Shown: in pieces, positions 3,449 to 31,912 of the stretch
Position numbering within the stretch: the stretch's first letter is position 1
How the letters are laid out: each line of letters begins with the position of its first letter
Origin: Amnibacterium sp.
GTDB taxonomy: Bacteria > Actinomycetota > Actinomycetes > Actinomycetales > Microbacteriaceae
NCBI GenBank assembly: GCA_025936735.1
Contig: JAICSU010000012.1
Span: 1 to 33,033, forward strand
Direction: 5' to 3'
DNA: 33,033 nt
Made by a program: the position numbers and the translations under genes
The notes under the pieces: model-generated
What the model saw: only the letters and a program-made list of their open reading frames with translations
What the model was told of the DNA's origin: nothing
Database searches by the model: none

Positions 3449-3455
3449 GTCGGGG

Positions 3456-3461
3456 ATCCTA
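3456..3461 (-). promoter_or_regulatory. Leaderless-type -10 element of the EcsC-like gene
   Basis: On the minus strand TAGGAT is followed by CCCCGAC and then the ATG at 3448. Transcription would start at or next to the start codon, giving a leaderless mRNA. Confidence 0.5.
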
Positions 3462-3518
3462 GGAAACCGCCCTGGCACCCCGCCGACCGTCCGCCGCGTC
3501 GGTGCCTCGTGCCGGTGC

Positions 3519-3524
3519 TAGCGT
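3519..3524 (+). promoter_or_regulatory. Candidate -10 element for the 138-residue membrane protein
   Basis: TAGCGT, 30 bases before the GTG at 3555. The leader it would give contains the Shine-Dalgarno sequence GAGGAG. Confidence 0.4.
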
Positions 3525-3554
3525 CGGTCGGTCCCGCCAGCGAGGAGCTGACCC

Positions 3555-3971
3555 GTGTCCATCCCGTTCTTCGGCCCCGCCCAGACCGACGCGTTCATCC
3601 CCGCGCTCGTCTGGTTCCTCGTGGCGACGGCGTTCGCCGTGACCCCGGTCGTGCTCGCGCCGCTGCTCGCCCGGATGCGCCTCGGCCGGCCTCTCACGGC
3701 CGCGGCCGTCGTCCTCGCGGTGGCCGCGGTGGTGCCGGGGTGCATCGAGGCGGGGCAGGCGGTCGCCACCCTCGGGGACGAGCACGCCCTCGTGCAGGCC
3801 ACGATGGCCGACCGGTACGGGGTGCCCCTGTCCTCCGGTGAGGTGGGCAGCCTGCTCGAGGGCGGGAAGGTCAAGCCCGCCGGCTTCGCGCACACGATCC
3901 ATCTCGAGGCCGGGGCCGACGGGCAGTACGCGCCGGTGGAGGCGGTCGTCGGCCCGCTGCCGGCCCGGTGA
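3555..3971 (+). CDS. Small two-TM membrane protein of unknown function
   Basis: 138 residues starting MSIPFFGPAQTD. The GTG start is set by GAGGAG nine bases upstream. Two hydrophobic segments are seen at about residues 15-38 (LVWFLVATAFAVTPVVLAPL) and 46-66 (PLTAAAVVLAVAAVVPG), followed by a soluble tail of about 70 residues that would face outside if both segments span the membrane. No known domain is recognised. It converges with the Wzt-type gene, with four bases between the stops. Confidence 0.7.
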   Translation: MSIPFFGPAQTDAFIPALVWFLVATAFAVTPVVLAPLLARMRLGRPLTAAAVVLAVAAVVPGCIEAGQAVATLGDEHALVQATMADRYGVPLSSGEVGSLLEGGKVKPAGFAHTIHLEAGADGQYAPVEAVVGPLPAR

Positions 3972-3975
3972 CGGC

Positions 3976-4713
3976 TCAGCCCTTGTAGTCGTCCTCGTAG
4001 CGGTCGAAGGCCTCCTCGATGCCGCCGTCGAACTGCATCCGCCCCTTGTCGAGGTAGAGCCCGCGCTGGCAGAAGCGCTTCAGGTCGGCGGCGTTGTGCG
4101 AGACGAAGAAGAGGGTGCGGCCCTCGTCGAGCATCTCCTCGATGCGGGCGTAGCACTTGTTGCGGAAGCCCCGGTCGCCGACCGCGAGCACCTCGTCGAC
4201 GAGCAGGATCGGTTCGTCCATCCGCGACACGACGCTGAACGCGGCGCGCACCTTCATGCCGGACGACAGGTGCCGGTAGGGGGTGTTGACGAAGTCCTTG
4301 ATCTCCGCGAAGTCGATGATGTCGTCGAACTCCGCGTCGATCTCGCTCTTGCGCTTCCCGTGCAGGCCCGCCGAGAGGTAGATGTTGTCGCGGACGGAGA
4401 GGTCCTCGACGAAGCCGCCCGTGATCTCGATCAGCGGAGCGACCCCGCGCCGGACGGACACGTGCCCCTCGTCGGGCAGCATCACCTCGGCGACGAGCTT
4501 CAGCAGCGTCGACTTGCCCTGCCCGTTGCGGCCGACGACGCCGATCGACTCGCCCTGCTGCACGTCGAAGCTGATGTTGCGGAGCGCCCAGAACTCGTCC
4601 GGCTTCGCTCGCCGCTCGCCGGTGGCGAAGAGGTCCTTGAAGCTGCGCGTCCGCTGCCGGTTGCGCTTGAACCGGATGCCGACGTCGTCGACCGAGATGA
4701 CGGGCGTCGGCAC
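3976..4713 (-). CDS. Wzt/TagH-type polysaccharide ABC exporter ATPase
   Basis: 245 residues. Walker A is GRNGQGKST at about residues 61-69, preceded by the VQQGESIGVVG strand typical of polysaccharide-export ATPases (Wzt, TagH, RfbE). The signature segment reads YRHLSSGMKVRAAFSV and Walker B is ILLVDEVLAVGD. The VDEVLAVGD form is characteristic of this export subfamily. There is no C-terminal glycan-binding domain of the long Wzt kind, so it resembles the short Wzt/TagH ATPases. The GTG start is one base after the permease stop, and its Shine-Dalgarno AAGGAG lies inside the permease's last codons, so the two are translationally linked. It should power export of an undecaprenyl-linked polysaccharide or teichoic acid across the cytoplasmic membrane. 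Confidence 0.93.
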   Translation of the reverse strand: MPTPVISVDDVGIRFKRNRQRTRSFKDLFATGERRAKPDEFWALRNISFDVQQGESIGVVGRNGQGKSTLLKLVAEVMLPDEGHVSVRRGVAPLIEITGGFVEDLSVRDNIYLSAGLHGKRKSEIDAEFDDIIDFAEIKDFVNTPYRHLSSGMKVRAAFSVVSRMDEPILLVDEVLAVGDRGFRNKCYARIEEMLDEGRTLFFVSHNAADLKRFCQRGLYLDKGRMQFDGGIEEAFDRYEDDYKG

Positions 4714-4714
4714 C

Positions 4715-5536
4715 TCAGATCTCCTTCAGCACGCGCGGCACGCTGCGCCGGAACACGACCGTGCCGATCGCCAGCACGATCAGCGACACGATCGCCGACT
4801 CGAGCACGTAGACCCAGTCGAGCACCTCCGGGAAGAAGCAGGCCCGGTACAGCTCGAGGAAGCCGACGACGGGGTCGAGGCCGTAGAGGAAGTGCAGGAC
4901 CGGGTTCCCGAGCTTGAACGAGTAGATGACGGGCGCGCCGTAGAACAGCAGGCGGGTCACGAGCTTCACGACCCGCTCGAGGTCGCGGAGGAACACCGAC
5001 GCCGGGGCGATGATCAGGTTGAACCCCACCGTGAGCACGATCTGCAGCACGAGCGCGATCGGCAGGTACAGCAGCCCCTCGACGACCGGGGCCTTCAGGG
5101 TCACGAGTGCGAAGAAGGCGATCACCGGAAGGCTGATCAGGAACTCGATGCCCTTCGACGCGATCTGCCGGAGGATCCAGATGCTCCGGGGGATCTTCAC
5201 CGATCGGATGAGCTTCGCCTCGGACCGGAACGCCTTCGTCGCATCCGAGATGTTGCCGCTGAACCAGGTCCAGGGCAGCAGGGCCGAGAGCAGGAAGACG
5301 ATGTAGGGCTCCTGGCCCGCACGCCCGTGCGGGATGACCAGGGTGAAGACGAACCAGTAGATCCCCGCCATGAGCAGGGGGTCGATGATCGACCAGAGGT
5401 AGCCGAGGGCGCTCGTCGTGTAGCGGACCTTCAGGTCGCGCGTCGTGAGCAGCCACAGCGCGTGCCGGTAGCGGGTCCAGTAGCCGGGGCGCCGAGCAGC
5501 CCGAACGGGCCGGGTCGCGGTCACGGCTGCGGTCAC
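4715..5536 (-). CDS. Wzm/TagG-type polysaccharide ABC exporter permease
   Basis: About 273 residues if the GTG at 5536 is used (a second GTG at 5524 is possible; neither has a strong Shine-Dalgarno). An ABC2-membrane protein with about six TM segments: LWSIIDPLLMAGIYWFVFTL, then FLLSALLPWTWFSGNI, a cytoplasmic stretch SEAKLIRSVKIPRSIW, and four further hydrophobic stretches. The N-terminal YRHALWLLTTRDLKVRY amphipathic segment and the EPYIVFLLSALLPWTWF pattern match the O-antigen/teichoic-acid exporter family. It is first in a two-gene operon with the ATPase, transcribed from the divergent region at 5537-5701. The exported polymer may relate to the TagF-like and GT4 genes at 24.5-26.9 kb, but they are 19 kb away. 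Confidence 0.92.
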   Translation of the reverse strand: MTAAVTATRPVRAARRPGYWTRYRHALWLLTTRDLKVRYTTSALGYLWSIIDPLLMAGIYWFVFTLVIPHGRAGQEPYIVFLLSALLPWTWFSGNISDATKAFRSEAKLIRSVKIPRSIWILRQIASKGIEFLISLPVIAFFALVTLKAPVVEGLLYLPIALVLQIVLTVGFNLIIAPASVFLRDLERVVKLVTRLLFYGAPVIYSFKLGNPVLHFLYGLDPVVGFLELYRACFFPEVLDWVYVLESAIVSLIVLAIGTVVFRRSVPRVLKEI

Positions 5537-13702: not shown

Positions 13703-14923
13703 GTGGCCGACCCCGTCCGTCTGATCAGCGCCGCGGTGCGCGACCGCGCCCGGCGGGGCGAGCTCGCCGACGACGGGCCGGCCGGCGCGGTGCGAGAGGA
13801 GCTGCGCCGGTACGCGGAGCACGCCGTGGCCTCCGGCGCGCCGCAGATCGACGACGAGCGCCAGGCCGAGCGGCGCATCGTGGCCGAGCTGTCCGGCTTC
13901 GGGCCGCTGCAGCCCCTGCTCGACGATCCCGACATCGAGGAGATCTGGATCAACGGGCCCACCCGTGTCTTCGTCGCGCGGGGCGGCGTCGCCGAGCTGA
14001 CGCCGCTCGTGCTGGCCGAGCAGGAGGTGCGCGATCTCGTCGAGCGGATGCTCGTGACGAGCGGCCGGCGCGTCGACCTCTCGTCCCCGTTCGTCGACGC
14101 CTCGCTGCCCGACGGGTCACGCCTCCACGTCGTGATCCCCGACATCACCCGGCGGCACTGGGCGGTGAACATCCGCAAGTTCTCGGACCGGGTGATGGAC
14201 CTCGAGGCGCTCGTCAGCCGGGGATCGCTGCCCCGGGACGCCGCGGACTTCCTTCGGGCGGCCATGCTGGCGGGCGTCAACGTGCTCGTGTCGGGGGCGA
14301 CCCAGGCGGGCAAGACGACCCTGCTGAACGCGCTGCTCGCCGCGGGGCGCCCGTCCGACCGGGTCATCACGGTGGAGGAGACCTTCGAGCTGCGCTCGCC
14401 GGGACGGGACTCCGTGGCGATGCAGTGCCGGCAGCCGAGCCTCGAAGGCGCCGGCGAGGTCACCCTGCGGCGGCTCATCAAGGAGGCCCTGCGCATGCGG
14501 CCGGACCGGCTCGTCGTGGGGGAGGTGCGGGAGGCCGAGGCCCTCGACCTGCTCATCGCTCTCAACTCGGGCATCCCCGGGGCCTGCAGCATCCACGCGA
14601 ACTCCGCCCGCGACGCGCTCACGAAGCTGTGCACCCTGCCGCTGCTCGCCGGCCGCAACATCGACGGGGCTTTCGTCGTGCCGACGGTCGCCGCGTGCGT
14701 CGAGCTCGTCGTGCACTGCGAGATGCTCGCCTCCGGACGGCGGCGGATCACCGAGATCCTCGCGCCGACCGGGTCGGTCGGCGACGGGGGAGCCATCGAG
14801 GCGAGCCGCGTCTTCGCCCTCGACGCGGGCGTGCTCCGCCCCCGCGGCGCCGTGCTGCCGCGGACGCAGAAATTCGACGCGGCGGGCATCGACGTGCGCT
14901 CCCTGCTGCGACGGGCCGCATGA
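13703..14923 (+). CDS. cpaF: Tad pilus assembly ATPase CpaF/TadA
   Basis: 406 residues. A secretion-superfamily hexameric ATPase that drives Flp/Tad pilus extension at the inner face of the membrane. The N-terminal domain has GFGPLQPLLDDPDIEEIWING; Walker A is GATQAGKTT from residue 198 (the usual first Ser/Thr-Gly-Ser is varied to Gln-Ala). The Asp box carries ITVEETFEL, Walker B is RPDRLVVGEVR, and the His box SIHANS follows. Upstream there is no tadZ/ssd-like gene, only tRNA-Leu. The stop overlaps tadB (ATGA). It heads a motor/platform operon cpaF-tadB-tadC. Confidence 0.95.
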   Translation: MADPVRLISAAVRDRARRGELADDGPAGAVREELRRYAEHAVASGAPQIDDERQAERRIVAELSGFGPLQPLLDDPDIEEIWINGPTRVFVARGGVAELTPLVLAEQEVRDLVERMLVTSGRRVDLSSPFVDASLPDGSRLHVVIPDITRRHWAVNIRKFSDRVMDLEALVSRGSLPRDAADFLRAAMLAGVNVLVSGATQAGKTTLLNALLAAGRPSDRVITVEETFELRSPGRDSVAMQCRQPSLEGAGEVTLRRLIKEALRMRPDRLVVGEVREAEALDLLIALNSGIPGACSIHANSARDALTKLCTLPLLAGRNIDGAFVVPTVAACVELVVHCEMLASGRRRITEILAPTGSVGDGGAIEASRVFALDAGVLRPRGAVLPRTQKFDAAGIDVRSLLRRAA

Positions 14924-15780
14924 TCCCCGCCCTCGGCGCGCTCGGCGGAGCGGGTCTGCTGCTCGTCGTGTCCCCGCTGCTGTGGCCCGCCTCCCGCCGG
15001 AGGACCCGGCCGAGGCGCGGGCCGGACCGCATCGCAGAACGGCTCGAGCGAGCGGGCGTGCGCGGTGTGGCGCCGGGCCTGTTCCTGCCCGTGTCCGCCC
15101 TGCTCGCGCTCGCCGCCGGGGCCCTCGCGGAGGCGGTCACCGCGCTGCCCGCCGTCGCCGCCCTCGCCCTGATCTCGGCCGGCGTCGCGCCGTGGCTGAT
15201 CCTCGGCTGGCGCGCCAGGGCCCGGGTCCGCGCCGCCCGGGCGCTCTGGCCCGTCGTCGTGGATGCGCTCGTGGCCGCCGTCCGCGCCGGCCTGCCCCTG
15301 CCCGACGCCGTCGCGGCGCTCGCCACCGAAGGGCCGGCACCGCTGCGTCCCGGGTTCGCCCTGTTCGAGCAGCGCTGGCGGGAGACGGGTACGACGTCCG
15401 CGGCGCTCGACGCCGCGAAGGCCCGCTTCGCCGATCCGACCGCCGACCGCCTCATCGAGATCCTCCGGATGGCACGGCAGGTGGGAGGGGCCGAGCTGCC
15501 GTCGGTGCTCCGCGACCTGGCGGTCCACCTGCGCGCCGACCAGGCCCTGCGGGCCGAGATGGAGGCTCGGCAGTCGTGGGTGACCGGCGCCGGCAAGCTG
15601 GGGCTGGCCGCGCCGTGGATCGTGCTCGTGCTGCTCGCGACGCGGCCGGAGGGCGCGGCCGCCTACGCGACCCCCGCCGGTGCCGTGCTGATCGTCACGG
15701 CGGCGGCGGTGACCCTCGTCGCGTACCGGGTGATGGTGGCGATCGGGCGCCTCCCGGAGGACCAGCGGTGGTTCCGGTGA
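14920..15780 (+). CDS. tadB: Tad pilus platform protein TadB
   Basis: 286 residues. A T2SSF-domain inner-membrane platform protein of the Tad pilus. An N-terminal TM (LGALGGAGLLLVVSPLLWP), two TM segments at about residues 45-90, a cytoplasmic F domain with VVVDALVAAVRAGLPLPDAV and MARQVGGAELPSVLRDLA, and two C-terminal TM segments. The helical pattern GLPLPDA and the AELPSVLRDLA segment are typical. Starts on ATGA overlapping the cpaF stop and itself is overlapped by tadC. Confidence 0.9.
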   Translation: MIPALGALGGAGLLLVVSPLLWPASRRRTRPRRGPDRIAERLERAGVRGVAPGLFLPVSALLALAAGALAEAVTALPAVAALALISAGVAPWLILGWRARARVRAARALWPVVVDALVAAVRAGLPLPDAVAALATEGPAPLRPGFALFEQRWRETGTTSAALDAAKARFADPTADRLIEILRMARQVGGAELPSVLRDLAVHLRADQALRAEMEARQSWVTGAGKLGLAAPWIVLVLLATRPEGAAAYATPAGAVLIVTAAAVTLVAYRVMVAIGRLPEDQRWFR

Positions 15781-16715
15781 CCGCGGAGCTCGCCCTCGCG
15801 ATCGCCTGCGGCATCGGGTTCGGTCTCGGGGTCTGGAGCCTGACGAGCCGACTGCCCGCCCTCGCGCGGCCGCGGCTCGCGACGCGGATCGCCCCGTTCC
15901 TGCTCGACGTCTCACCCGAGGCGCGGCGCCTCCGCGACCGCGTGCCGGCAGACCCGGTGCCGGTGCTCGGGGTGCTCGCCGTCCCGCTGCTCGAGGTCTT
16001 CCAGCGGGCGTTCGGCGCGGTGCTCGGCTCACCCGGCCGCACCGCCGTCCGCCTCCGCCGGGCGGGGCTCGAGCGCAGCGTGGAGGGCCAGCGGCTGCGC
16101 CAGCTCGGCTGGACCGCGGCGGGGGCGGTCCTCGCGGGCGGGGTCGCGCTGCTCGTGGGCCTCGCCGGATCCGCGTCGCAGCTCGCGGTCGCCGCCGCGC
16201 CGGTCGTCGGCGCAGGCCTGGGGCTCGCCGCCTCCGACCACGCCCTCACCCGGGTCGCGCGCCGCCGGGCGGGACGGATCGAGAGCGAGCTGCCGACGGT
16301 CCTCGAGTTCCTGGCCCTCAGCCTCGCGGCGGGGGAGGGGGTGCACGACGCGCTCGCCCGGGTCTCCCGCGTGGGCAGCGGCGTGCTCGCCGTCGAGCTC
16401 GGCGCGGTGGTCGCGGAGACCCGCGTCGGCGTGCCGCTCGGCGCCGCCCTCGCCCGGCTCGGCGACGAGCTCGCCATCCCGGCGCTGACCCGCTGCCTCG
16501 CCCACGTGGTCGCGGCGCTCGAACGGGGCTCGCCCCTCGCCGAGCTGCTGCGGGTGCAGGCGGCCGACGCCCGGGAGGAGGCACGCCGCGCGATGCTGGA
16601 GAGCGCAGGCCGGAAGGAGGTGGCGATGCTCGTGCCCCTGGTGTTCCTGATCCTCCCGGTCACCGTCGCGTTCGCCGTCTGGCCCGGGATCGTGGTGTTG
16701 CAGACCCAGCTCTGA
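15768..16715 (+). CDS. tadC: Tad pilus platform protein TadC
   Basis: 315 residues from the GTG at 15768, chosen because GGAGGA lies six bases upstream; a GTG at 15777 overlapping the tadB stop is the alternative. T2SSF domain with LPTVLEFLALSLAAGEGVHDAL and the second helix pair PLAELLRVQAADAREEARRAML. TM segments flank it; the C-terminus ends with PLVFLILPVTVAF and AVWPGIVVLQTQL. Diverged copies of exactly this tail recur at 17447-17485 and 18700-18744, marking rearrangement downstream. In most Tad loci the pilin and TadE genes would come next; here they are 13.8 kb away. Confidence 0.92.
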   Translation: MVPVTAELALAIACGIGFGLGVWSLTSRLPALARPRLATRIAPFLLDVSPEARRLRDRVPADPVPVLGVLAVPLLEVFQRAFGAVLGSPGRTAVRLRRAGLERSVEGQRLRQLGWTAAGAVLAGGVALLVGLAGSASQLAVAAAPVVGAGLGLAASDHALTRVARRRAGRIESELPTVLEFLALSLAAGEGVHDALARVSRVGSGVLAVELGAVVAETRVGVPLGAALARLGDELAIPALTRCLAHVVAALERGSPLAELLRVQAADAREEARRAMLESAGRKEVAMLVPLVFLILPVTVAFAVWPGIVVLQTQL

Positions 16716-18979: not shown

Positions 18980-19699
18980 TCACGCCCCCTGCGCTGCCAG
19001 GCCGGCGACGTAGCCCTCGGGGGCCACGACCGGGGCGATGTCCCACCGCCCGATCCGCCCGTGATCGGCGAGGGGGGTGACGACCCGAGCGGGATCGGCT
19101 GCGAGACCCACGCCCTCCCCCTTGAGCACGGCCTCCTTCTGCACCCAGGCACGCGTGATCGCCGCCGGCCGCCGCCCGGCGGGCAGCAGCGCGATGCCTG
19201 CCTGCTCGGCCGCGGAGAGCCACCGCTCGTCGGTGACGGCACCCAGATCGGTCTCCGCGACGCGCTCGACGTCGATGCCGATCCGGTGACGGCGGGCGAC
19301 GGCGACGAGGCCGACCGTCCCGCTGGTCGACGTGCTCACCCCCGGGAACGCCCGTCCGGCGTCGTCCAGCAGCTCCGGCTTCCCCCCAGCGCGGGCGAGC
19401 GGCACCGCGCCGGGATCGAGGCCCAGCACGTCGCCGAGCAGAATCCGGAGGGCCGCGCGCATCAGGACGCGCCGGCGCCGCACGGCGGGGTCGCCGGCCG
19501 CCGCTCGCCGCAGCTCCTCCGCCGTCAGGAGAGACGCGGCCGCCTGCAGGTCCCAGTCGGGGCGCCCGAGGTCGAGTCGTCGGATCCACAGGTCCGGTGC
19601 CGCGGACGTCGCCGCGGTCGGGGTGCCCGACCGGCAGAGGCGGTCGGGAGTCAGCTCATCGGGGACGAGCGACCCCGGCGGGAGGACCGAGTCGTGCAC
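18980..19699 (-). CDS. Sfp-type 4'-phosphopantetheinyl transferase
   Basis: 239 residues. Transfers the phosphopantetheine arm from CoA to a Ser of carrier domains. Present: GGKPEL (residues 105-110), the Mg-binding IGIDVERV (140-147) and WVQKEAVLKGEG (185-196), the three main motifs of the Sfp family. Odd: the segment where relatives have a Ser-His motif (NxSHS), whose His contacts CoA in Sfp, reads GVSTSTSGTVGL (120-131) with no His. The GTG start is ten bases after the stop of the synthetase gene, so the two are co-transcribed and the obvious substrate is that synthetase's carrier domain. Confidence 0.9.
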   Translation of the reverse strand: MHDSVLPPGSLVPDELTPDRLCRSGTPTAATSAAPDLWIRRLDLGRPDWDLQAAASLLTAEELRRAAAGDPAVRRRRVLMRAALRILLGDVLGLDPGAVPLARAGGKPELLDDAGRAFPGVSTSTSGTVGLVAVARRHRIGIDVERVAETDLGAVTDERWLSAAEQAGIALLPAGRRPAAITRAWVQKEAVLKGEGVGLAADPARVVTPLADHGRIGRWDIAPVVAPEGYVAGLAAQGA

Positions 19700-19708
19700 C
19701 GTCCCGGA

Positions 19709-22700
19709 TCACCCCGTCCGGCGCTCGACCGCCGAAGGGCGCGCCGGAGGGGCCGCTCCCGCCCCGTCCGCCGCCCGGAGGGCGTGGGAGACGCGTGCTG
19801 CGAGCGCGGGTGCGTTCTTCTCGGCGAGCAGCTCGTAGTGCGCGCCCGGCACGTCGACGATCGTCAGGTCGGGTGCCATCCGGCGCCAGGCGTGCATCAG
19901 ATGCGAGATCACCGGGATCCGCCGCGCGGCCCTGAAGTACGTCACCGGACCGCCGTAGGGCTGCAGCGAGAACGATCGCGCGAGGCGCACCGAATCCAGC
20001 AGCATCAGCTGCTCGCTGCTCAGCGTGTCCCTGCGGAACCGGTTCGCGACGGCCGTCGCGATCGTGGTGTCCGAGAAGCCCGGCAGGAAGATCGCGATGA
20101 AGGACGCCGCCCTCCGCGCCAGCTGCTCCGGTCGCGTGAGGCTCACCAGCGGCGGCCGCGGGTCGAGCAGTCCGAGGAAGACCACGTCACGACCTCGCTC
20201 GACCAGCCGTCTCGCCGCCTCGTACGCGAGCAGGCCACCGAAGGAGTAGCCGGCGAGCGCGATCGGCCCGGAGGGCATCACGGCGACGATCCCGTCGACG
20301 AGGCGGGCCGCGACATCGTCCACCGGCCTCCGCTCACCGTCCCTGCCGTACATCGCCCCGTAGACGCCGTGCACGGCGCGACCCGGGTCGAGCTGCTCCA
20401 CGAGGTACCGGTACAGGTCGACGTCGCCGTGCACCCCCTGGAGGAGGAGCAGCGGTGTGGCGGCGGGATCGGTCCCCTTGCGCAGGGGCCGCACCGCGAC
20501 CTCGTGCGGCGCCATCGCGGGGCTGCGCTCGATGGCGTCGGTCAGCGCCCGGATGGAGGGATCCGCCAGGAACGTCTCCATGGACACGTCCCGGCCCGTC
20601 TCGGTCCGGATCAGCCGCAGCAGCGTCATCGACTGCCGCGACGTCCCTCCCGCATCGTAGAAGTCGGCCGTGTCCCGCACGCGGCGACCCAGCACCTCGC
20701 GGAACAGGCGCCCGATGACCCCGTCGGCGTCTCCGTCTCCGTCGTGAGGCGGCGCGGCCGGCGGTCGAGTCGCCGCCTCGACCGAGTCCGCGATCCGCTG
20801 GAGCGACTCCGGGTTCCGCAGGGCGGCGAGGTTGCGGGGCGGCTCGCCGTTCAGGACGTCGCGCGCGGCCCGTTCCGACGGCTTGCCGTTGAAGGTCGTC
20901 GGCAGGTCCGGCACCGCGACCACCAGGGACGGCACGTGGGCCGGGGAGCCCTCCTCGCGAAGGAGGGCGCGGATGTGCTCGGCCAGCTCGTCGTCGAGGG
21001 AGCGCCCTGCCCGCAGCACGACGAGCAGCACGAGACGCGAGCTGCCGGAACGGGTCGGGTCCCGCTGCTCGACCGCCATCGTCGCGGAGATCTCCGGTAG
21101 TCGCTTCAGGATCGTGTAGATCTCCGTCGGACCGATCCGGATGCCGTCGATGTTCAGCACCCCGTCGGACCGCCCGTGGAACCGGGTCGAGCCGTCCGCG
21201 GCGATGTCGACCAGGTCGCCGTGGGGCCACATGCCCGGGTGCTGCACGAAGTAGGACCGGTGGTACCGGCTGCCGTCCGGGTCCTTGAGGAAGCCGACCG
21301 GGCGGGACGGGAAGGGGTTGCGGCAGACGAGCTCCCCGACCCGACCGACGACCTCCTCGCCGTGCTCGTCGACCGCGACCACGTCCATGCCGAGGCTCCG
21401 CACCCGACAGCGGCCGCGGATCTCCGGAAGCTCCGGATGCCCGAGCACGAACGCGCCGAGGATGTCGGTGCCGCCGCTGGTGGACTGCAGGGTGATCGGC
21501 CCGACCGCGTCCGCGAACCAGTCGTACTGCCAGTCGTGCAGCACGGACCCGTTGCTGATCACGAGGCGCAGCCGATTCAGGTCCACCTCGGCCGCGGGCC
21601 GATAGCCGGAGTCCTCGCACAGCTGGAGATAGGGCGGGCTGGTGCCGAACATCGTGACGCCCTGCTCCGCGGCGAGGCGCCACAGCGTGTCCGGCCCGGC
21701 GACCGCACCGTCGAAGACCACGATGCCGGCCCCGGCCGCGAGTGCGGTGAGCTGCTTGTTCCACATCATCCACGCGGTGGTGGTGTGGTGGTAGTAGACG
21801 TCGGACGCACGCAGGTCGAGGTGCAGCCAGTACTCCTTGAGGTGCTCGAGCAGGGTGCCGCCTGCGCCGTGCAGCATCGCCTTCGGGGGACCTGTGGTGC
21901 CCGAGGTGAACATCACGAACACCGGATGGTCGAACGGCAGGCGGGGCCAGTCCACGGGTGCCGCCGGCGCCTTCTCCGTCTCCGCATCGAGGGCGTGGAC
22001 CGCGCACGTCGTCAGCGGTGGGGTGGTGCCCTGGTCGGCCACCAGCACCGCGGACAGCGACGGCAGCCCGACGGCGAGCGACTCCAGCGAGTCGCCCTCC
22101 GCGCCCTCCCATGCGGCGGACCGCCCCCGGTCGAGCACGAGGAACTTCGGCTCGATCTGCTGGAACCGCGTGAGCAGCGCCGTGACCCCCATGTCCGGCA
22201 TCGCGAGCGAGACCGTTCCACCGATCGCGATCGCCGCGAGCGCGATGACCACGGCACGGATGCTGTTCGGGGCGACGATCACGATCCGGTCGCCGACCAC
22301 GACACCGTGCGCGGCCAGCTGGGCCGCGGTCGCCTGGACGCGGGCGCGCAGCGCGGCCCTCGAGATGCGCTCGACGCGTCCGTCGTGGTGCACGGCGGTG
22401 ACCGCCGTCGACAGGTCGTCGACATCCGGCAGCGGGCGGAGGAGGTTCTCCGCGAAGTTCAGCCTCACGTCCGGGAAGAACCTGGCCGACTCCACGTCGT
22501 CCGAGGTCGAGACGACCTCCGCCGACCCCTCCCACGCGATCCCCGACCACTCCAGGAACGTTCCCCAGAAGTCCCGGTACCGGTCCACCGACCAGCGATG
22601 GAACACCTCGGGTGATTCGAGCGGCAGGTCGGTCAGGGCCGCGCACCGGGTGCGGAAGGACTCGATCCGGGGCGGCGGGGAACCACCGACGCGGGCGGGA

Positions 22701-22723
22701 GCGGGGGTAGTGACCGCGGTCAT
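19709..22723 (-). CDS. Adenylation-carrier-thioesterase synthetase with acetoacetyl-CoA-synthetase-like A domain
   Basis: 1004 residues in three domains. (1) Residues 1-620: an acyl-activating enzyme of the acetoacetyl-CoA synthetase type, with the N-terminal FHRWSVDRYRDFWGTFLEW and LNFAENLL, the ATP loop FTSGTTGPPKAMLH (about 272), SGGTDI (about 415), GRSDGVLNIDGIRIGP and the C-terminal Lys in TTFNGKPSE. (2) About 655-720: a carrier domain, with the phosphopantetheine Ser in DFYDAGGTSRQS (about 692). (3) About 745-985: a type I thioesterase with GYSFGG (Ser about 826), and GAHYELL supplying the His (about 961). There is no condensation or ketosynthase domain. Such A-T-TE proteins can join or release acyl units, as in fungal atromentin synthetases, but those use other A domains. 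Substrate unknown; probably a carboxylic or beta-keto acid. ATG at 22723 has a weak Shine-Dalgarno. Confidence 0.9.
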   Translation of the reverse strand: MTAVTTPAPARVGGSPPPRIESFRTRCAALTDLPLESPEVFHRWSVDRYRDFWGTFLEWSGIAWEGSAEVVSTSDDVESARFFPDVRLNFAENLLRPLPDVDDLSTAVTAVHHDGRVERISRAALRARVQATAAQLAAHGVVVGDRIVIVAPNSIRAVVIALAAIAIGGTVSLAMPDMGVTALLTRFQQIEPKFLVLDRGRSAAWEGAEGDSLESLAVGLPSLSAVLVADQGTTPPLTTCAVHALDAETEKAPAAPVDWPRLPFDHPVFVMFTSGTTGPPKAMLHGAGGTLLEHLKEYWLHLDLRASDVYYHHTTTAWMMWNKQLTALAAGAGIVVFDGAVAGPDTLWRLAAEQGVTMFGTSPPYLQLCEDSGYRPAAEVDLNRLRLVISNGSVLHDWQYDWFADAVGPITLQSTSGGTDILGAFVLGHPELPEIRGRCRVRSLGMDVVAVDEHGEEVVGRVGELVCRNPFPSRPVGFLKDPDGSRYHRSYFVQHPGMWPHGDLVDIAADGSTRFHGRSDGVLNIDGIRIGPTEIYTILKRLPEISATMAVEQRDPTRSGSSRLVLLVVLRAGRSLDDELAEHIRALLREEGSPAHVPSLVVAVPDLPTTFNGKPSERAARDVLNGEPPRNLAALRNPESLQRIADSVEAATRPPAAPPHDGDGDADGVIGRLFREVLGRRVRDTADFYDAGGTSRQSMTLLRLIRTETGRDVSMETFLADPSIRALTDAIERSPAMAPHEVAVRPLRKGTDPAATPLLLLQGVHGDVDLYRYLVEQLDPGRAVHGVYGAMYGRDGERRPVDDVAARLVDGIVAVMPSGPIALAGYSFGGLLAYEAARRLVERGRDVVFLGLLDPRPPLVSLTRPEQLARRAASFIAIFLPGFSDTTIATAVANRFRRDTLSSEQLMLLDSVRLARSFSLQPYGGPVTYFRAARRIPVISHLMHAWRRMAPDLTIVDVPGAHYELLAEKNAPALAARVSHALRAADGAGAAPPARPSAVERRTG

Positions 22724-22849: not shown

Positions 22850-23248
22850 TCACTCGATGAGCGCGCTCCACCCGTCGAGCCGGCACTGCCCGTGCAGCCA
22901 GCCGGCGATCGTCATGGTGCGCACCCACCGGTCGAGGCCCGAGCGGGTGACGGCCACCTCCGGTGTCGTGCCGGCGACGGTCCACTCGTCGGTCTCGGTC
23001 TCCGGCGCGCGCACCTCGACCTCGTAGTCCCCCTCCGTCTCCAGGTACTCCGCGAGCTCGTCCCCGACCTCCTGCGTCGACGCGGCGAAGGCGAACTCGA
23101 TCCGCACCGCGTCCGCGCCGGTCTCGGCGACGCTCTCGGCGCTGTCCGCGTTCATCTCCTCGAGCTCCGCGAGGTTCTCGGCCACCCAGTCGGAGGGCGC
23201 TCCGCCCTCATCCGGCTGCGGCAGCGTCTCCTCGATCGGCGTCGCCAT
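22850..23248 (-). CDS. RraB-like ribonuclease regulator
   Basis: 132 residues from ATG 23248, preceded by GGAAGGGG at good spacing; an ATG 27 bases upstream is less well placed. Residues 1-50 are acidic (LPQPDEGGAPSDW, LAELEEMNADSAESV). The rest matches the RraB fold: VRIEFAFAASTQEVGDELAEYL, then YEVEVR, EWTVAGTTPEV, LDRWVRTMTIAGWLHG, and the DGW near the end. RraB binds and inhibits RNase E in E. coli; in actinobacteria the role is inferred. Same strand as the synthetase but 126 bases apart, so linkage is uncertain. Confidence 0.75.
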   Translation of the reverse strand: MATPIEETLPQPDEGGAPSDWVAENLAELEEMNADSAESVAETGADAVRIEFAFAASTQEVGDELAEYLETEGDYEVEVRAPETETDEWTVAGTTPEVAVTRSGLDRWVRTMTIAGWLHGQCRLDGWSALIE

Positions 23249-23392: not shown

Positions 23393-24454
23393 ATGACGTC
23401 GCCTGAGCCCGCCCCGCGATCCGAGGCCCTCGCCGCGGAGCTCGCCCGCGTGCTCGAGTCGGGGGGTGCCGCGGCGCCCGACCTCGTCCCGGCGGCGGAG
23501 GTGGTGGTCACCGGACGGTCGACGCTGCACCGCATCGCGGACCGGGCGAGCGGTGAGCAGTACCTCGTGAAGGTCCCGATCGTCGTGAGCGGCTGGGTCG
23601 ACACGCACGACGTCCTGCCTCCCGCCGCGCAGTTCGAGGCGCTCGAGCGCGCCTACCGATGGCAGTCGGCGGAGGACCGGCACGCCGTCGTGCGGCCGGT
23701 GGCGATGCTGCCCGAGCACGACGCCTTCGCGATGGAGTGGGCGCCGGGACGGACGGTGCTGGAGACCCTCGACCGGGCGCCGTTCGATCCTCGGGCCGCC
23801 CACGCCGCCGTGCGGGCCGCAGGCGACTTCCTGCGGCGGTTCCACCGGCACGGATGGGTGGCCGAGGAGCGGGTCGCGCTCGACGGTCCCGTGGAGGAGA
23901 TCCGGCACCTCGTCGCCGGGCCGCTCCGCGACGCCGGCCTGCGGCTGCCCGGGCCCGTGTCGGCGGCCCTCGACCGCGTCGCCGACCGGAGCGCCGTGCA
24001 GGCCCGCGTGCTGCTGCACGGCGACTACGTGCCGAGCAACCTGATCGTCCGCAGCGCCGACGAGGTCGTGATGATCGACCCGCTGCTCGCCGACGTCGGC
24101 CCGACGGCGGACGACCTCGCGCGCTTCCTGACCGTGCTGTCCTCGAACAGCGCCTTCCTGCCCGGCGTGGTGCTGCCCCCGGTGCGGCGGCTGCGCCGGT
24201 CCCTCGAGGCGGCGTTCCGGGAGTCCTACGGCATCCGTGATCCCGACGAGCTGCTCGAGCTGCGGCTGCTGCACCAGCATCTCCTGCGATGGTTGCGCCG
24301 GCGCGAGAACTCCCGCCTGCGCGGCGCGGCCCCGCTGCTCGCCGCCCGGAACCGCCTCATCGACCGGCACATGCGGGCGCTTCTCCTCGAGTCCGGTGCG
24401 CGGCTGGCGGCGGCGACGAGGCATGACCCGCGGCTCCCCGGACCGATACGATGA
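23393..24454 (+). CDS. APH-fold phosphotransferase (small-molecule kinase)
   Basis: 353 residues with the aminoglycoside phosphotransferase/choline kinase fold: YLVKVP (ATP Lys), AMEWAPGRTV hinge region, the catalytic loop LLHGDYVPSNLIV (H-G-D-x5-N) and VMIDPLLADVGPTADDLARFL, whose IDP replaces the more usual IDFE/IDW metal motif. The C-terminal third is Arg-rich. Real aminoglycoside resistance is unlikely; its neighbours are cell-wall polymer genes, so a sugar, alditol or lipid kinase for that pathway is a fair inference. It is followed at once by a hairpin and the TagF-like gene. Confidence 0.82.
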   Translation: MTSPEPAPRSEALAAELARVLESGGAAAPDLVPAAEVVVTGRSTLHRIADRASGEQYLVKVPIVVSGWVDTHDVLPPAAQFEALERAYRWQSAEDRHAVVRPVAMLPEHDAFAMEWAPGRTVLETLDRAPFDPRAAHAAVRAAGDFLRRFHRHGWVAEERVALDGPVEEIRHLVAGPLRDAGLRLPGPVSAALDRVADRSAVQARVLLHGDYVPSNLIVRSADEVVMIDPLLADVGPTADDLARFLTVLSSNSAFLPGVVLPPVRRLRRSLEAAFRESYGIRDPDELLELRLLHQHLLRWLRRRENSRLRGAAPLLAARNRLIDRHMRALLLESGARLAAATRHDPRLPGPIR

Positions 24455-24459
24455 CCGGT

Positions 24460-24483
24460 CCCACCTGTCTTCCCGCAGGTGGG
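24460..24483 (+). terminator. Hairpin between the kinase and tagF-like genes
   Basis: CCCACCTG (24460-24467) and CAGGTGGG (24476-24483) form a perfect 8-bp stem with an 8-base loop, starting six bases after the kinase stop. It may be a terminator, or an attenuator in the leader of the next gene, since TACGAT at 24447-24452 is a possible -10. Confidence 0.5.
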
Positions 24484-24506
24484 AGTGCGATTGGAGCGGC
24501 GTTCGG

Positions 24507-25730
24507 GTGGGCGATCCTCGAGGACGGCGACGTGGTCTGCGCCTCCCGTCCCGTCGCCGGGTCTTCTCGTCGCTCGTCCGGGCACTCCTGCGCTCCATCC
24601 CGCCGCGCCCCCAGGTCACGGTGTACGGCTGGCCCGACCACGAGGGCAACGGGGTGGCCCTCGTGCGGTTCCTGGCCCGACACGGCGGCGAACGCCGCGT
24701 CGTCTGGCTGACGAACGGAGCCGTTCGCGTCCCTGGCGGCCCGGATCGGTGGATCGACCGGGTCCGTGTGCTGCCGAAGCGCTCGATCCGCGGCCTGTGG
24801 GCGTACCTCCGGAGCGACGTCGTGTGCTTCACCCACGGCCTCTACGGCAGCCCGCAGCCGGAGCGCGGGCGGGTCTTCATCAACCTCTGGCACGGCGACG
24901 GGCCGAAGCGGACGGAGAACCCGAGGTTCGCCGCTCGCCCGGGCGCCACCGCCATCGTCGGGCAGACGCGGCTGTGGGGAGAGAAGAAGGCGGCGGAGCT
25001 CGGCATGCCGGCCTCGTCGGTGCTCGTGGTCGGCAACCCCCGGATCGACGACTTCGCCGAGCCGATGACCGCGGAGCAGCGCAGCGGGCTCGCCGAGCTG
25101 CTCGGCCCCCGGTTCATCCTCTGGATGCCGACCTACCGCGACTCGAACGGGGCCGGGTTCCGGAACTGGAGCGACGGGCGACGGCTCAGCGAGACCGACC
25201 AGATGGCGGCGCTCGCCGAGCAGGCCCGGTCGGCCGCGGCGGTCCACGGCATCACCGTGGCGGTCAAACCCCATCCCATGGACCGGGACGTGTACGCGGG
25301 GGTACCCGGGCTGCTCAGCATCGACGACGAGGCGCTGCACCGCCTCGGGCTCTCCCTCTACCAGGTGATCGGTGCATCGGAAGCCCTGATCACGGACTAC
25401 TCCAGCGTGTGGACGGACTACCTGGTGGTCGACCGGCCCGTCCTGCTGCTCTGCCCCGACTACGAGGAGTACGCCGCGACCCGGGGCTTCAACGTGCCGG
25501 ACCTGCGCGCCGTCGCGCCCGGCCCGCTCGTCGAGGACCCCGCCGCCCTGGAGGCGTTCATCGCGGACGTCGCCGCCGGCCGGGACCCGTTCCGCGCCCG
25601 CCGGCTGGCGCTCGTCGAGGAGATCGGCGCCGTGCAGGAGCCCGGAGCATCCGCCCGGTTGTGGGAGGCCGTCACGCGGCTCCGAGCGGGAGGCGGGCGG
25701 CCCGCCCCGGTCGAGGAACGGACGGGCTGA
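24507..25730 (+). CDS. CDP-glycerol glycerophosphotransferase family protein (TagF/TagB-like)
   Basis: About 407 residues from the GTG at 24507. I prefer this start because the frame upstream runs through the hairpin at 24460 and has no family-like residues; GGAG lies 11 bases before it, and an ATG at 24422 is the alternative. Core motifs of the glycerophosphotransferase family: NLWHGDGPKR, AIVGQTRLWGEKKAAELG, LWMPTYRDS, VAVKPHPMD and ALITDYSSVWTDYLVVDRPVLLL. These membrane-associated enzymes transfer glycerol-phosphate or ribitol-phosphate from CDP donors to build teichoic-type polymers. One base separates its stop from the GT4 gene, so they form an operon; the Wzm/Wzt exporter at 4-5.5 kb could export the product. 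Confidence 0.9.
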   Translation: MGDPRGRRRGLRLPSRRRVFSSLVRALLRSIPPRPQVTVYGWPDHEGNGVALVRFLARHGGERRVVWLTNGAVRVPGGPDRWIDRVRVLPKRSIRGLWAYLRSDVVCFTHGLYGSPQPERGRVFINLWHGDGPKRTENPRFAARPGATAIVGQTRLWGEKKAAELGMPASSVLVVGNPRIDDFAEPMTAEQRSGLAELLGPRFILWMPTYRDSNGAGFRNWSDGRRLSETDQMAALAEQARSAAAVHGITVAVKPHPMDRDVYAGVPGLLSIDDEALHRLGLSLYQVIGASEALITDYSSVWTDYLVVDRPVLLLCPDYEEYAATRGFNVPDLRAVAPGPLVEDPAALEAFIADVAAGRDPFRARRLALVEEIGAVQEPGASARLWEAVTRLRAGGGRPAPVEERTG

Positions 25731-25731
25731 G

Positions 25732-26910
25732 ATGCGGATCCTCTACTACATCCCGGGGAACACGTACGGGGGCGCCCACAACCAGGTCGTCCGCCTCGCC
25801 GCGCCCCTTCGGGAGGCCGGGTACGACCCCGTCGTCCTCATCGCCGACGAGCCGGGCGACGGGTACGACCGCCTCGTCGCCGCCGGCGTGGAGACCTACC
25901 GGGCGACGCTGCTGCGCCCCCGGGCCACGCGGCGGATGTCGACGAACCTGGCGGTGGTCCGCGGGTTCGCCCCCCAGGTGCGGATGCTCGAGCGGTTCCT
26001 CCGCGAGCAGCGCATCGACCTGATCCAGCTGCACGGCGTGCTGAGCGTCGACGGTGCCCTCGCCGCGCGGGGGCGGAGGCTGCCCGTCGTCTGGCAGATC
26101 CTCGACACGCGCGCACCGCGCGCCGTCCGGCTCGCGACGGCGCCGTTCGTGCAGCGGTACGCGGACGCCGTCCTCGTCACCGGCACCACGGTCGGCTCCC
26201 TCTACCCGGGCCTGCACCGGTTCGGGGACCGGCTCGTCCCGTACTACCCGCCCGTGAGCGCGGCGGAGTTCACGCCGCCGGACGAGGCGGCGCGACGGGC
26301 GGCCCGGGCGAGGCTCGGGGTCGCGGACGACGAGATCCTCGTCGGCGACCTGGGCAACCTCAACGCGCAGAAGGGGCACCAGTATGTCGTGGAGGCGGTG
26401 GGCCGCCTGCGCGGCCGGCTGCCGCAGGTGACCCTGCGTGTCCGGGGCGGCAGGGCCGCCGGCCACGAGCGCTACGAGGCGAGCGTCGAGGACCTCGCGG
26501 CCTCCTACGGGCTGCCCACGGACACGGTGGGCCAGCTCGCGGACGGGATGGACTCGGCCGCGTTCCTCCGCGCGCTCGACCTCTTCGCGGTCGGCTCCGA
26601 GCCGCGCTCCGAGGGCGTGCCGACGGTGATCATCGAGGCCATGCTGACCGGCGTCCCCGTGGTCGCCAGCGACGTCGGGGGCGTGGCGGAGGCGGTCAGG
26701 GACGGCGAGACCGGCTTCTGCGTGCCGCCCAGGGACGTCGGCGCGATGGCCGACCGGCTCGAGCGGTTGGTCGCGGACCCGGCGCTGCGGCGCGCGATGG
26801 GGGAGCGCTCCCGTGCGGTGGCCGCCGCCGAGCTGTCGCTCGAGTCCTGCATCGAGGCGCACCTGCGGGCGTACCGCGCTGCGGTCGAGCACGGCCGCGG
26901 TCGCCGCTAG
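25732..26910 (+). CDS. GT4-type glycosyltransferase
   Basis: 392 residues in the GT-B fold. N-terminal MRILYYIPGNTYGGAHNQVVRLA has the Gly-rich acceptor loop; the C-terminal half has GNLNAQKGHQYVVEAV and the donor-site motif SEGVPTVIIEAMLTGVPVVASDVGG (here SEPRSEGVPTVIIEAM), the E-x7-E of retaining GT4 enzymes. No TM segments. Likely adds a sugar to a lipid-linked or teichoic-type polymer in concert with the preceding TagF-like gene. The ATG is one base after that gene's stop; its Shine-Dalgarno GAGGAACGG is rather distant, so coupling is likely. Confidence 0.92.
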   Translation: MRILYYIPGNTYGGAHNQVVRLAAPLREAGYDPVVLIADEPGDGYDRLVAAGVETYRATLLRPRATRRMSTNLAVVRGFAPQVRMLERFLREQRIDLIQLHGVLSVDGALAARGRRLPVVWQILDTRAPRAVRLATAPFVQRYADAVLVTGTTVGSLYPGLHRFGDRLVPYYPPVSAAEFTPPDEAARRAARARLGVADDEILVGDLGNLNAQKGHQYVVEAVGRLRGRLPQVTLRVRGGRAAGHERYEASVEDLAASYGLPTDTVGQLADGMDSAAFLRALDLFAVGSEPRSEGVPTVIIEAMLTGVPVVASDVGGVAEAVRDGETGFCVPPRDVGAMADRLERLVADPALRRAMGERSRAVAAAELSLESCIEAHLRAYRAAVEHGRGRR

Positions 26911-30488: not shown

Positions 30489-30671
30489 GTGAAGACCCTG
30501 CTGCTCGAGGTCCACCACCGGGACGGCGCCGAGGCCGAGCGCGGCGACGTGCCCGGCTGGGTGCTCGTCACCCTGATGACCGCCGGCCTCGTCGTGCTGC
30601 TGTGGGGCGTCGCCGGGCCCGCCTTGACCAACCTGTTCCAGCAGGCGATCTCGAGCGTCTCCGGGATATGA
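30489..30671 (+). CDS. Flp-pilin-like small protein of the Tad locus
   Basis: 60 residues. A charged leader ends at ERGDVPGW, followed by one TM helix VLVTLMTAGLVVLLWGVAG and an amphipathic tail (LTNLFQQAISSVSG). Position (directly before TadE genes, overlapping ATGA) and shape, a basic/acidic leader then a hydrophobic helix after a Gly, fit a Flp-type pilin or pilin-like subunit. The Glu normally at +5 after the cleaved Gly is missing; Trp is there instead. GTG start with Shine-Dalgarno GGGAGGA. Confidence 0.75.
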   Translation: MKTLLLEVHHRDGAEAERGDVPGWVLVTLMTAGLVVLLWGVAGPALTNLFQQAISSVSGI

Positions 30672-31048
30672 CCCCGCTCGCCGAGCGCGGCTCCGCCCCG
30701 GTGGAGTTCGTGCTCGTCGGCGTGCTGCTCGTCGCCCTCGTGCTCGGCGTGCTGCAGGTCGGCGCCGTGCTGTTCGTCCGCAACACCGCCCTCGATGCCG
30801 CGGCGGAGGGTGCGCGCTGGGCCGCGATCGAGGGCACGCCCTCGGCCGGCGCCGCCCGCACCGTCCAGGTCCTGACCGCGGCGCTCGGCCCCTCCTACGC
30901 CAGGGACGTCAGGGCGGGGATCGGGATGGAGGCGGGCGCGCCGGTCACGGTCGTGACCGTCCGGACCCCGCTGCCCGTGCTCGGTCTGATCGGGCCGCCG
31001 CGCGCGCTGGAGGTGTCGGGGCATGCCGCGCTCGAGCCCGTTCCCTGA
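30668..31048 (+). CDS. TadE-like pseudopilin
   Basis: 126 residues. Class III signal: RGSAPVEFVLVGVLLVALVLG, with the prepilin-peptidase Gly before SAPVEF and Glu at the expected +5 region, then a TM helix and the TadE-like VLFVRNTALDAAAEGARWAA. The C-terminal half would lie outside the membrane. ATGA overlap with the pilin-like gene; the next gene starts 26 bases inside this one. A minor subunit of the Tad pilus. Confidence 0.9.
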   Translation: MTPLAERGSAPVEFVLVGVLLVALVLGVLQVGAVLFVRNTALDAAAEGARWAAIEGTPSAGAARTVQVLTAALGPSYARDVRAGIGMEAGAPVTVVTVRTPLPVLGLIGPPRALEVSGHAALEPVP

Positions 31049-31484
31049 CGCCGCGGCGGAGACCGGGTCCGCCGCCGTGGAGTTCGTGACGCTCGGGGTC
31101 GTGCTGCTCGTCCCGCTCGTCTACCTCGTGCTCGTCCTCGGCGCGCTCCAGGGCGCCGCCTTCGCCGCCGAGGGGGCCGCCCGGCAGGCGGCGCGCGAGG
31201 TCGTCCTGGCGGGCAGCGATGCGGCCGGTCGGGCCGCCGCCGTCGGCGCGGTGCGCACGGCCCTCGCGGACTGGCGGATCCCGGAGTCCGCCTCGTCGGT
31301 CGAGCTCGGCTGCGCTCCCGATCCCGGCGACTGCCTCGTCCCGCGCGGCACGGTGCGGGTCACCGTGCGGGTCGCCGTCGCCCTTCCGCTGCTGCCCCGC
31401 GCCCTCTCGGTCGGCACGCCGGGCGCCGTCCCCGTCGAGGCGCATGCGGTGCAGCGCGTGTCGATGTTCGAGGCGCCGCGGTGA
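31023..31484 (+). CDS. Second TadE-like pseudopilin
   Basis: 153 residues. TGSAAVEFVTLGVVLLVPLVYLVL is the class III signal and TM helix; FAAEGAARQAAREVVLAG matches TadE proteins. The extracellular part has two Cys close together (GCAPDPGDC), probably a disulfide loop. ATG at 31023 with GGAGGTG upstream; the gene overlaps its predecessor by 26 bases and the next by four (GTGA). Confidence 0.9.
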   Translation: MPRSSPFPDAAAETGSAAVEFVTLGVVLLVPLVYLVLVLGALQGAAFAAEGAARQAAREVVLAGSDAAGRAAAVGAVRTALADWRIPESASSVELGCAPDPGDCLVPRGTVRVTVRVAVALPLLPRALSVGTPGAVPVEAHAVQRVSMFEAPR

Positions 31485-31912
31485 CCGCCGGCCGCGACGA
31501 CGGATCGACGCTGCCGCTGATCCTCGTCTTCCTCGCGATCGCCGTGGCTTTCGTCCTCGTCACCGCCGGGGCGACCGCCCTCCACCTCGAACGGCTGCGG
31601 CTGCTCACCGTGGCCGACGGGGCGGCGCTCGCCGCGGCGGAGTCGTTCCCGGTCGGCGACGCGCGCGTGCAGGGCGGGACCGTGGTGCCGCGGCTCTCCG
31701 ACGCCGAGGTCGGGGCAGCCGCTGCGGCCGCGGTCGACGGTGCGGACGCCGGCGGCCTCGCCGACGTGCGCATCGTCGAGGCGCGCACGCCGGAGGGCCG
31801 CACGGCGCTCGTCCGCCTCACCGCGACCTGGCACCCGCCGATCTCGACCCCGCTGCTGCCGGTCGCGGTGCCCATCACGGTCGTGTCGACGGCGTCGGCT
31901 CGCTTCCGCTGA
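31481..31912 (+). CDS. TadG/TadE-like protein of the Tad locus
   Basis: 143 residues. DDGSTLPLILVFLAIAVAFVLV is a prepilin-like segment lacking the usual Glu, followed by LERLRLLTVADGAALAAAESF, the pattern of the TadE-like proteins that close actinobacterial Tad clusters. GTG start overlaps the previous stop. Its last 38 bases overlap, tail to tail, the 3' end of the acyl-CoA synthetase gene on the other strand. Confidence 0.85.
   Translation: MTAGRDDGSTLPLILVFLAIAVAFVLVTAGATALHLERLRLLTVADGAALAAAESFPVGDARVQGGTVVPRLSDAEVGAAAAAAVDGADAGGLADVRIVEARTPEGRTALVRLTATWHPPISTPLLPVAVPITVVSTASARFR

Follow-up and report, generated by a model that had tools for sequence, protein, structure and literature searches.

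The two-gene locus and its relatives

The stretch of DNA analysed here (the window) covers 33,033 nucleotides of an Amnibacterium genome (contig JAICSU010000012.1) and carries two adjacent genes encoding an adenylation-carrier-thioesterase (A-T-TE) protein and a phosphopantetheinyl transferase (PPTase). The A-T-TE protein (P0001; 1004 aa, ATG start; 19709..22723, minus strand) was delineated from its open reading frame (ORF) and from Pfam and NCBIfam matches. Its adenylation (A) domain (residues 18-650; 20774..22672), assigned from NCBIfam, a Protein Data Bank (PDB) match and a tree, is of the acetoacetyl-CoA synthetase (AACS) type, and is followed by a carrier (PP-binding) domain (residues 672-731; 20531..20710) and a thioesterase (TE) domain (residues 757-980; 19784..20455), both assigned from Pfam and all on the minus strand. 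The Pfam matches were AMP-binding at 110-470 (144 bits), AMP-binding_C at 537-614, PP-binding at 672-731 (39.7 bits) and Thioesterase at 757-980 (69.6 bits); no condensation domain was found by Pfam in P0001 at E ≤ 0.001, in agreement with the original prediction made from the letters alone. The expected residues were in place in each domain: the catalytic Lys614 of the A domain (codon 20882-20884), Ser695 of the carrier as the phosphopantetheine site (20639-20641), and the TE triad of Ser827 (20243-20245), Asp854 (20162-20164) and His962 (19838-19840).

The PPTase gene (P0002; 239 aa, predicted GTG start; 18980..19699, minus strand; ORF and Pfam) lies downstream of the A-T-TE gene on the same strand, with 9 nt between them. 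The third-position GC was of the coding type for both genes (0.93 for A-T-TE, 0.90 for PPTase). P0002 matched the ACPS/PPTase family (PF01648) at 139-210 with 40.5 bits against a cut-off of 25, its best NCBIfam model was HetI, under the cut-off (68.5 vs 370 bits), and no PDB match was found at E ≤ 0.001. With PF01648 over the cut-off, a length of about 240 aa and an adjoining carrier gene, it shows the marks of the Sfp/HetI type that were tested.

The source genome (G000; 2.94 Mb, 84% complete) contains a second A-T-TE at C63, 71% identical to P0001, and another genome of the genus (G006) contains one that is 69% identical and also has a PPTase; in total, 2 of 7 genomes of the genus carry an A-T-TE. 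Because the pair occurs twice more in Amnibacterium genomes, it is not a chance reading, and the locus is confirmed as the two ORFs originally described. The three loci in the genus, and the many found outside it, led us to reject a chance fusion or an assembly artefact. The PPTases at the C63 copy and in G006 are 56% and 54% identical to P0002, respectively. Each of the five genomes of the genus without an A-T-TE had one PF01648 match, G006 had two (one beside the A-T-TE) and G000 had two (both beside A-T-TEs), so that extra matches occurred in 2/2 genomes with an A-T-TE vs 0/5 without; the AcpS of G000 presumably lies in the missing part of its genome. The PPTase looks dedicated to the A-T-TE. 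As for carriers, PP-binding matches in the 84%-complete G000 were the two A-T-TEs and one other, and those in G006 were the A-T-TE and one other, the remaining ones being presumably AcpP. Because only one PP-binding match stands besides the A-T-TEs, no partner of the nonribosomal peptide synthetase (NRPS) or polyketide synthase (PKS) kind is seen by such matches in G000 and G006. Separately, carriers were found within ORFs of about 1000 aa in two genomes that have no AACS-type A-T-TE and a single PPTase match (G001:C4 131974-135019 and G002:C340), which indicates that the genus holds other such carrier proteins.

The original prediction called A-T-TE proteins without condensation domains rare, which is not supported, the present family of proteins being widespread. 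In a draw from the bacterial family of the source genome, 2/398 genomes matched at E ≤ 1e-140, and in the draw of the class 13/394 matched at E ≤ 1e-125, with the match extending beyond the A domain only in G000 and G783; the other 11 ended at the A domain, their reading frames stopping 0-29 residues later, and served as standalone AACS. G783 belongs to a different family of that class (f59), where the A-T part was matched in 35/112 genomes at 42 places. The f59 locus counts given below cover 41 of these 42 places (G1119 was left out), and a few of the f59 stretches are short (L254, L255). Members were also traced in the Burkholderiaceae family of Paraburkholderia piptadeniae (G787; locus L012), in which 35/249 genomes matched at E ≤ 1e-140 and one match consisted of the A domain only, leaving 34/249. 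A PPTase was present in the stretch at 3/3 loci of the genus, 39/41 of f59 (21/21 in a first sample, 18/20 in a second) and 7/27 of the Burkholderiaceae, where it was the next gene in 5; the original prediction's claim that the protein comes with its own PPTase is thus borne out by a recurrent partner. Among 959 plasmid records matched by tblastn, 7 covered at least 80% of the query, all from Cupriavidus, Caballeronia or Paraburkholderia and 37.5-40.9% identical. Annotation under the match was given in 2 of these 7 and read acetoacetate--CoA ligase in both, so what is probably an enzyme that loads an acid on a carrier is read there as routine ketone-body metabolism. A contig scan with the T-TE half returned mostly ordinary T-TE proteins among the 80 loci listed, of which only L012 and L016 had an AACS-type A domain above 150 bits.

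The adenylation domain and the exchange of the last domain

The A domain passed the NCBIfam model for acetoacetate--CoA ligase (TIGR01217; 552 bits vs a cut-off of 520.9) and fell narrowly under the cut-off of the subfamily model NF002937 (632.6 vs 639 bits), and the best solved match of P0001 was an acetoacetate-CoA ligase (PDB 4wd1, E 3e-120). With the amino-acid adenylation model TIGR01733 it scored only 107 bits against a cut-off of 317. An NRPS-type A domain was thus rejected, and the AACS-like A domain of the original prediction, which was to fall if the domain grouped with those of NRPSs, stands. By sequence, the solved structure closest to the T-TE half was that of EntF (PDB 5ja1, 2roq, 3tej).

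We built a quick tree without bootstrap from 17 standalone AACS and 52 A domains of A-T-X proteins, by which we mean the A-T proteins of the clade with either a TE or, in two forms, a left-handed beta-helix (LbH, hexapeptide) domain at the end (3 rows from the genus, 21 from f59, 28 from Burkholderiaceae). All 52 formed one clade (SH-aLRT 100) separate from the standalone AACS, and the Amnibacterium rows fell among those of f59. In the alignment, 78 columns were conserved in both A-T-X and standalone AACS and 15 were specific to the A-T-X clade. The residue corresponding to Lys614 was kept in 52/52 rows and the carrier Ser in 51/52, the only row without it being L195, a copy with an out-of-frame C-terminal part. 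This f59 copy (L195 8461-10677) may be a decaying gene or carry a sequencing error; it was used uncorrected and does not figure among the intact TEs. Excluding L195 and the two LbH forms leaves 49 rows with unbroken TEs, of which 47 keep Ser, 49 Asp and 46 His.

The last domain is not constant in this clade. In two f59 proteins (G783, L104; G1073, L180), a fused LbH acyltransferase stands in place of the TE, and its relatives in the PDB include the serine, galactoside and maltose acetyltransferases. Two further loci, L181 and L187, keep the TE, with Gly in place of Ser and either Gly or Pro in place of His, and the stretches contain a separate 180-aa gene that is 56-71% identical to the fused LbH; it adjoins the A-T-TE gene in L187 and lies five genes off in L181. 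At E ≤ 1e-6, no LbH was found in the other 17 f59 loci of the first sample, in 20 random stretches or in 19 stretches around mfd without an A-T-X.

After this pattern had been noted, 20 more f59 loci were fetched as a second sample. One of them, L259, lacked both the Ser and the His of the TE, and it alone in that sample had a close LbH (67% identical). Over all f59 loci, 35/41 of which have an intact TE triad, a close LbH was present in 5/5 loci with the TE absent or its Ser and His lost vs 0/36 of the others, and the five cases comprise two fusions and three separate genes. If the loci were independent, the odds of this pattern would be 1 in 749,398, a figure to be read with the kinship that makes them non-independent. 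The direction of the exchange is the main point: the TE gives way to a transferase. Since an LbH acyltransferase accompanies the loss of the TE in 5/41 f59 loci, the loaded acid is most likely passed to an acceptor.

Gene neighbourhood

Upstream of the A-T-TE gene, three divergent genes that may or may not belong to the locus encode an APH-type kinase (23393-24454, plus strand), a CDP-glycerol/TagF-like transferase (24621-25730, plus) and a GT4 glycosyltransferase (25732-26910, plus). Neither of the other two copies in the genus was seen to have these genes (23393..26910) next to it, and in the parts scanned the three loci have different surroundings. Within six genes of the A-T-X gene at 51 loci, the PPTase was the only neighbour cluster with members in the genus, f59 and the Burkholderiaceae alike, and no larger conserved gene cluster was found.

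Sugar or polysaccharide genes were frequent, though not universal, neighbours of A-T-X. For the 21 f59 loci of the first sample, we tallied Pfam families in 133 proteins within four genes, leaving out the gene before A-T-X (normally the PPTase) and proteins of >1150 or <60 aa; such tallies are totals over the loci, in which a protein may count toward more than one family. Among the best 25 of the 106 families listed were GT2 (8), two GT1-type models that overlap (8 and 6), sugar transferases (4), WecG (4) and polysaccharide deacetylases (4). None of the leading sugar families had at least 2 members among the best 25 of 215 families listed for 139 proteins from 20 random stretches. At the second-sample loci without mfd, polysaccharide-type genes were matched in 5/14 vs 0/20 random stretches with a query set that was drawn from the first sample and does not pick up the GT4 gene of the window. 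In the clade to which the window belongs (20 loci, support 89), a gene that clusters with a glucosyl-3-phosphoglycerate synthase homologue lies within three genes in 6/20 loci (one of the six members of this cluster was compared with the PDB), and another glycosyltransferase-type cluster was present near 6 loci.

For the Burkholderiaceae copies, the tally covered 19 of the 27 loci (130 neighbours, no random control) and gave a few polysaccharide families among many metabolic ones. The next gene downstream is a GT2 in L151 and a GT34 in L157, a MurJ-type gene adjoins the copy in L008, and L109 adjoins an NRPS. In L154, a beta-keto acid cleavage enzyme (BKACE) and a 3-hydroxyacyl dehydrogenase (3HCDH) lie two and three genes off. 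BKACE enzymes release acetoacetate, and these two genes thereby support acetoacetate as the substrate beyond homology. L151, L152, L157 and L158 (by eye) and L154 (with BKACE and 3HCDH found) lie near genes resembling those for glycine-betaine/carnitine breakdown.

Several other features were noted. In L194, a second and different A-T-TE (2949-5486; AMP-binding 177 bits, PP-binding, thioesterase) lies near the AACS-type one, and by clustering only, relatives of it lie beside the A-T-TE in L262 and L265. In the window, a TIR-domain protein (PF13676; 17625-18653, minus, with a tentative start) is encoded downstream of the PPTase gene, and a small RraB-like protein, below the Pfam cut-off (22850-23248, minus), in the gap that separates the A-T-TE gene from the divergent genes of glycan type. 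Farther away, a Type II/IV secretion ATPase with two membrane-type ORFs after it, and small ORFs resembling Tad-pilus pilins (by eye), occupy 13703-16715 and 30602-31912, both on the plus strand.

Proposed function and comparison with known systems

We tentatively propose, with confidence a little short of even, that the two genes form an acyl-activation and acyl-transfer unit that would move a short, carrier-bound, acetoacetate-like acid onto sugars or surface glycans. The PPTase, as its pairing suggests, would attach phosphopantetheine to Ser695 of the carrier. The AACS-derived A domain, judged from its family and conserved residues, would adenylate a short acid, with acetoacetate or a close beta-oxo or beta-hydroxy acid as the likeliest candidates, and load it onto its own carrier rather than onto CoA. 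The TE may then act as an acyltransferase toward an external acceptor, as suggested by relatives that have a hexapeptide acyltransferase in its stead, and the acceptor, the weakest step, is predicted from the neighbours to be a sugar or surface glycan. The signs of transfer to a sugar are indirect, namely the LbH exchange and the neighbours, the latter weakened by the control at mfd.

Several observations weigh against this proposal. In the second sample, L249 and L265 keep an intact TE although a distant LbH (33% identical) is encoded 7-8 kb from it. By the tree, two evolutionary events, or perhaps a single one, would account for the correlation between TE and LbH, and all the exchange cases fall outside the window's own clade. 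The gene mfd is present in 13/21 first-sample f59 stretches, and the same site without A-T-X (133 of 148 neighbours, 17 of 19 loci) yielded 9 O-antigen ligases, 8 Wzz and some glycosyltransferases, with polysaccharide-type genes at 14/19 control loci. Because the mfd site is rich in polysaccharide genes without A-T-X, part of the sugar signal comes from the site and not from the enzyme, and the sugar context as a proof is weakened. Moreover, 9/14 second-sample loci without mfd had no match to the polysaccharide set, nor did the window, L009 and L011 (the set missing the window's GT4 gene), and many Burkholderiaceae copies sit in metabolic or chemotaxis surroundings, a group without a random control.

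Atromentin-type enzymes condense aromatic alpha-keto acids and EntF makes a cyclic trilactone. The original prediction suggested that a single enzyme may make the product. Here, the TE would join two or more loaded acids (e.g., two acetoacetates into a pyranone, or beta-hydroxy acids into a cyclic oligoester) and release the product. The A-T-TE order is that of non-reducing NRPS-like enzymes, the closest solved carrier-TE is that of EntF, and the PPTase is the sole neighbour common to all three groups, all of which fit such a synthetase. However, the A domain is not of the NRPS type, sugar-related neighbours recur at many, not all, copies, and a hexapeptide acyltransferase accompanies TE loss in f59; we know of no hexapeptide acyltransferase that condenses acids. 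We regard a one-enzyme synthetase as less likely than transfer, but as a serious rival. The loss of the TE Ser and His in three loci that keep the carrier Ser, together with the NRPS adjoining L109, would suit a loaded carrier that gives its acid in trans to another carrier or an NRPS/PKS, with the TE as a proofreading hydrolase. We consider this quite improbable, since the TE triad is intact in most f59 loci and one PP-binding match stands besides the A-T-TEs in G000 and G006. It is also very improbable, in our view, that the protein is an AACS variant still serving acetoacetate use, with the carrier and TE as regulatory or scavenging additions: the TIGR01217 cut-off is passed and a BKACE gene lies near one Burkholderiaceae copy (L154), but the clade is separate from standalone AACS, the PPTase partner recurs, and the TE is exchanged for an acyltransferase in relatives.

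If the acyl-transfer proposal is true, two genes would suffice, in a compact arrangement, to turn a small acid into a carrier-bound acyl donor whose transfer domain can be exchanged. Bacterial glycans would then be expected to bear unusual acyl groups that are chemically addressable through their ketone. It is a further and rather unlikely step that the loci represent an undescribed family of self-contained acyl-decorating enzymes, in which a carrier-loading AACS with its own PPTase would place acetoacetyl or other beta-oxo or hydroxy acyl groups on surface sugars, with either an alpha/beta-hydrolase TE or an LbH acyltransferase as a plug-in transferase. Among the literature matches listed, with subscription journals mostly outside their scope, no description of an AACS-type A-T-TE fusion was found, consistent with the original prediction, whose author knew of no described pathway of such design.

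Compared with AACS (TIGR01217, PDB 4wd1), the A domain of P0001 matches over nearly the whole length and shares the catalytic Lys, the WMMWN stretch and the 78 conserved columns, whereas A-T-X proteins differ in forming their own clade with 15 specific columns, in the fused carrier and TE, and in the PPTase partner. Serine/galactoside/maltose-type hexapeptide acyltransferases are stand-alone and CoA-dependent; these O-acetyltransferases are related to the LbH domain found in place of the TE in L104 and L180, but the LbH of A-T-X is fused to, or lies near, an acid-loading A-T pair. EntF, to which the T-TE half is closest among solved structures, differs in having a condensation (C) domain and an NRPS-type A domain and in making enterobactin. 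The A domains of the described A-T-TE enzymes are, as far as is known, of the NRPS type, and a bacterial example of such enzymes is the ralfuranone synthetase of Ralstonia. Non-reducing NRPS-like A-T-TE synthetases without a C domain, known from fungi (PMC9047271), share the domain order and the missing C domain with P0001, which is unlike them in its AACS-type A domain, its PPTase partner and in having some relatives where LbH takes the place of the TE. AACS itself is known as a stand-alone CoA ligase, as treated in a paper on its acetylation (PMC8007912).

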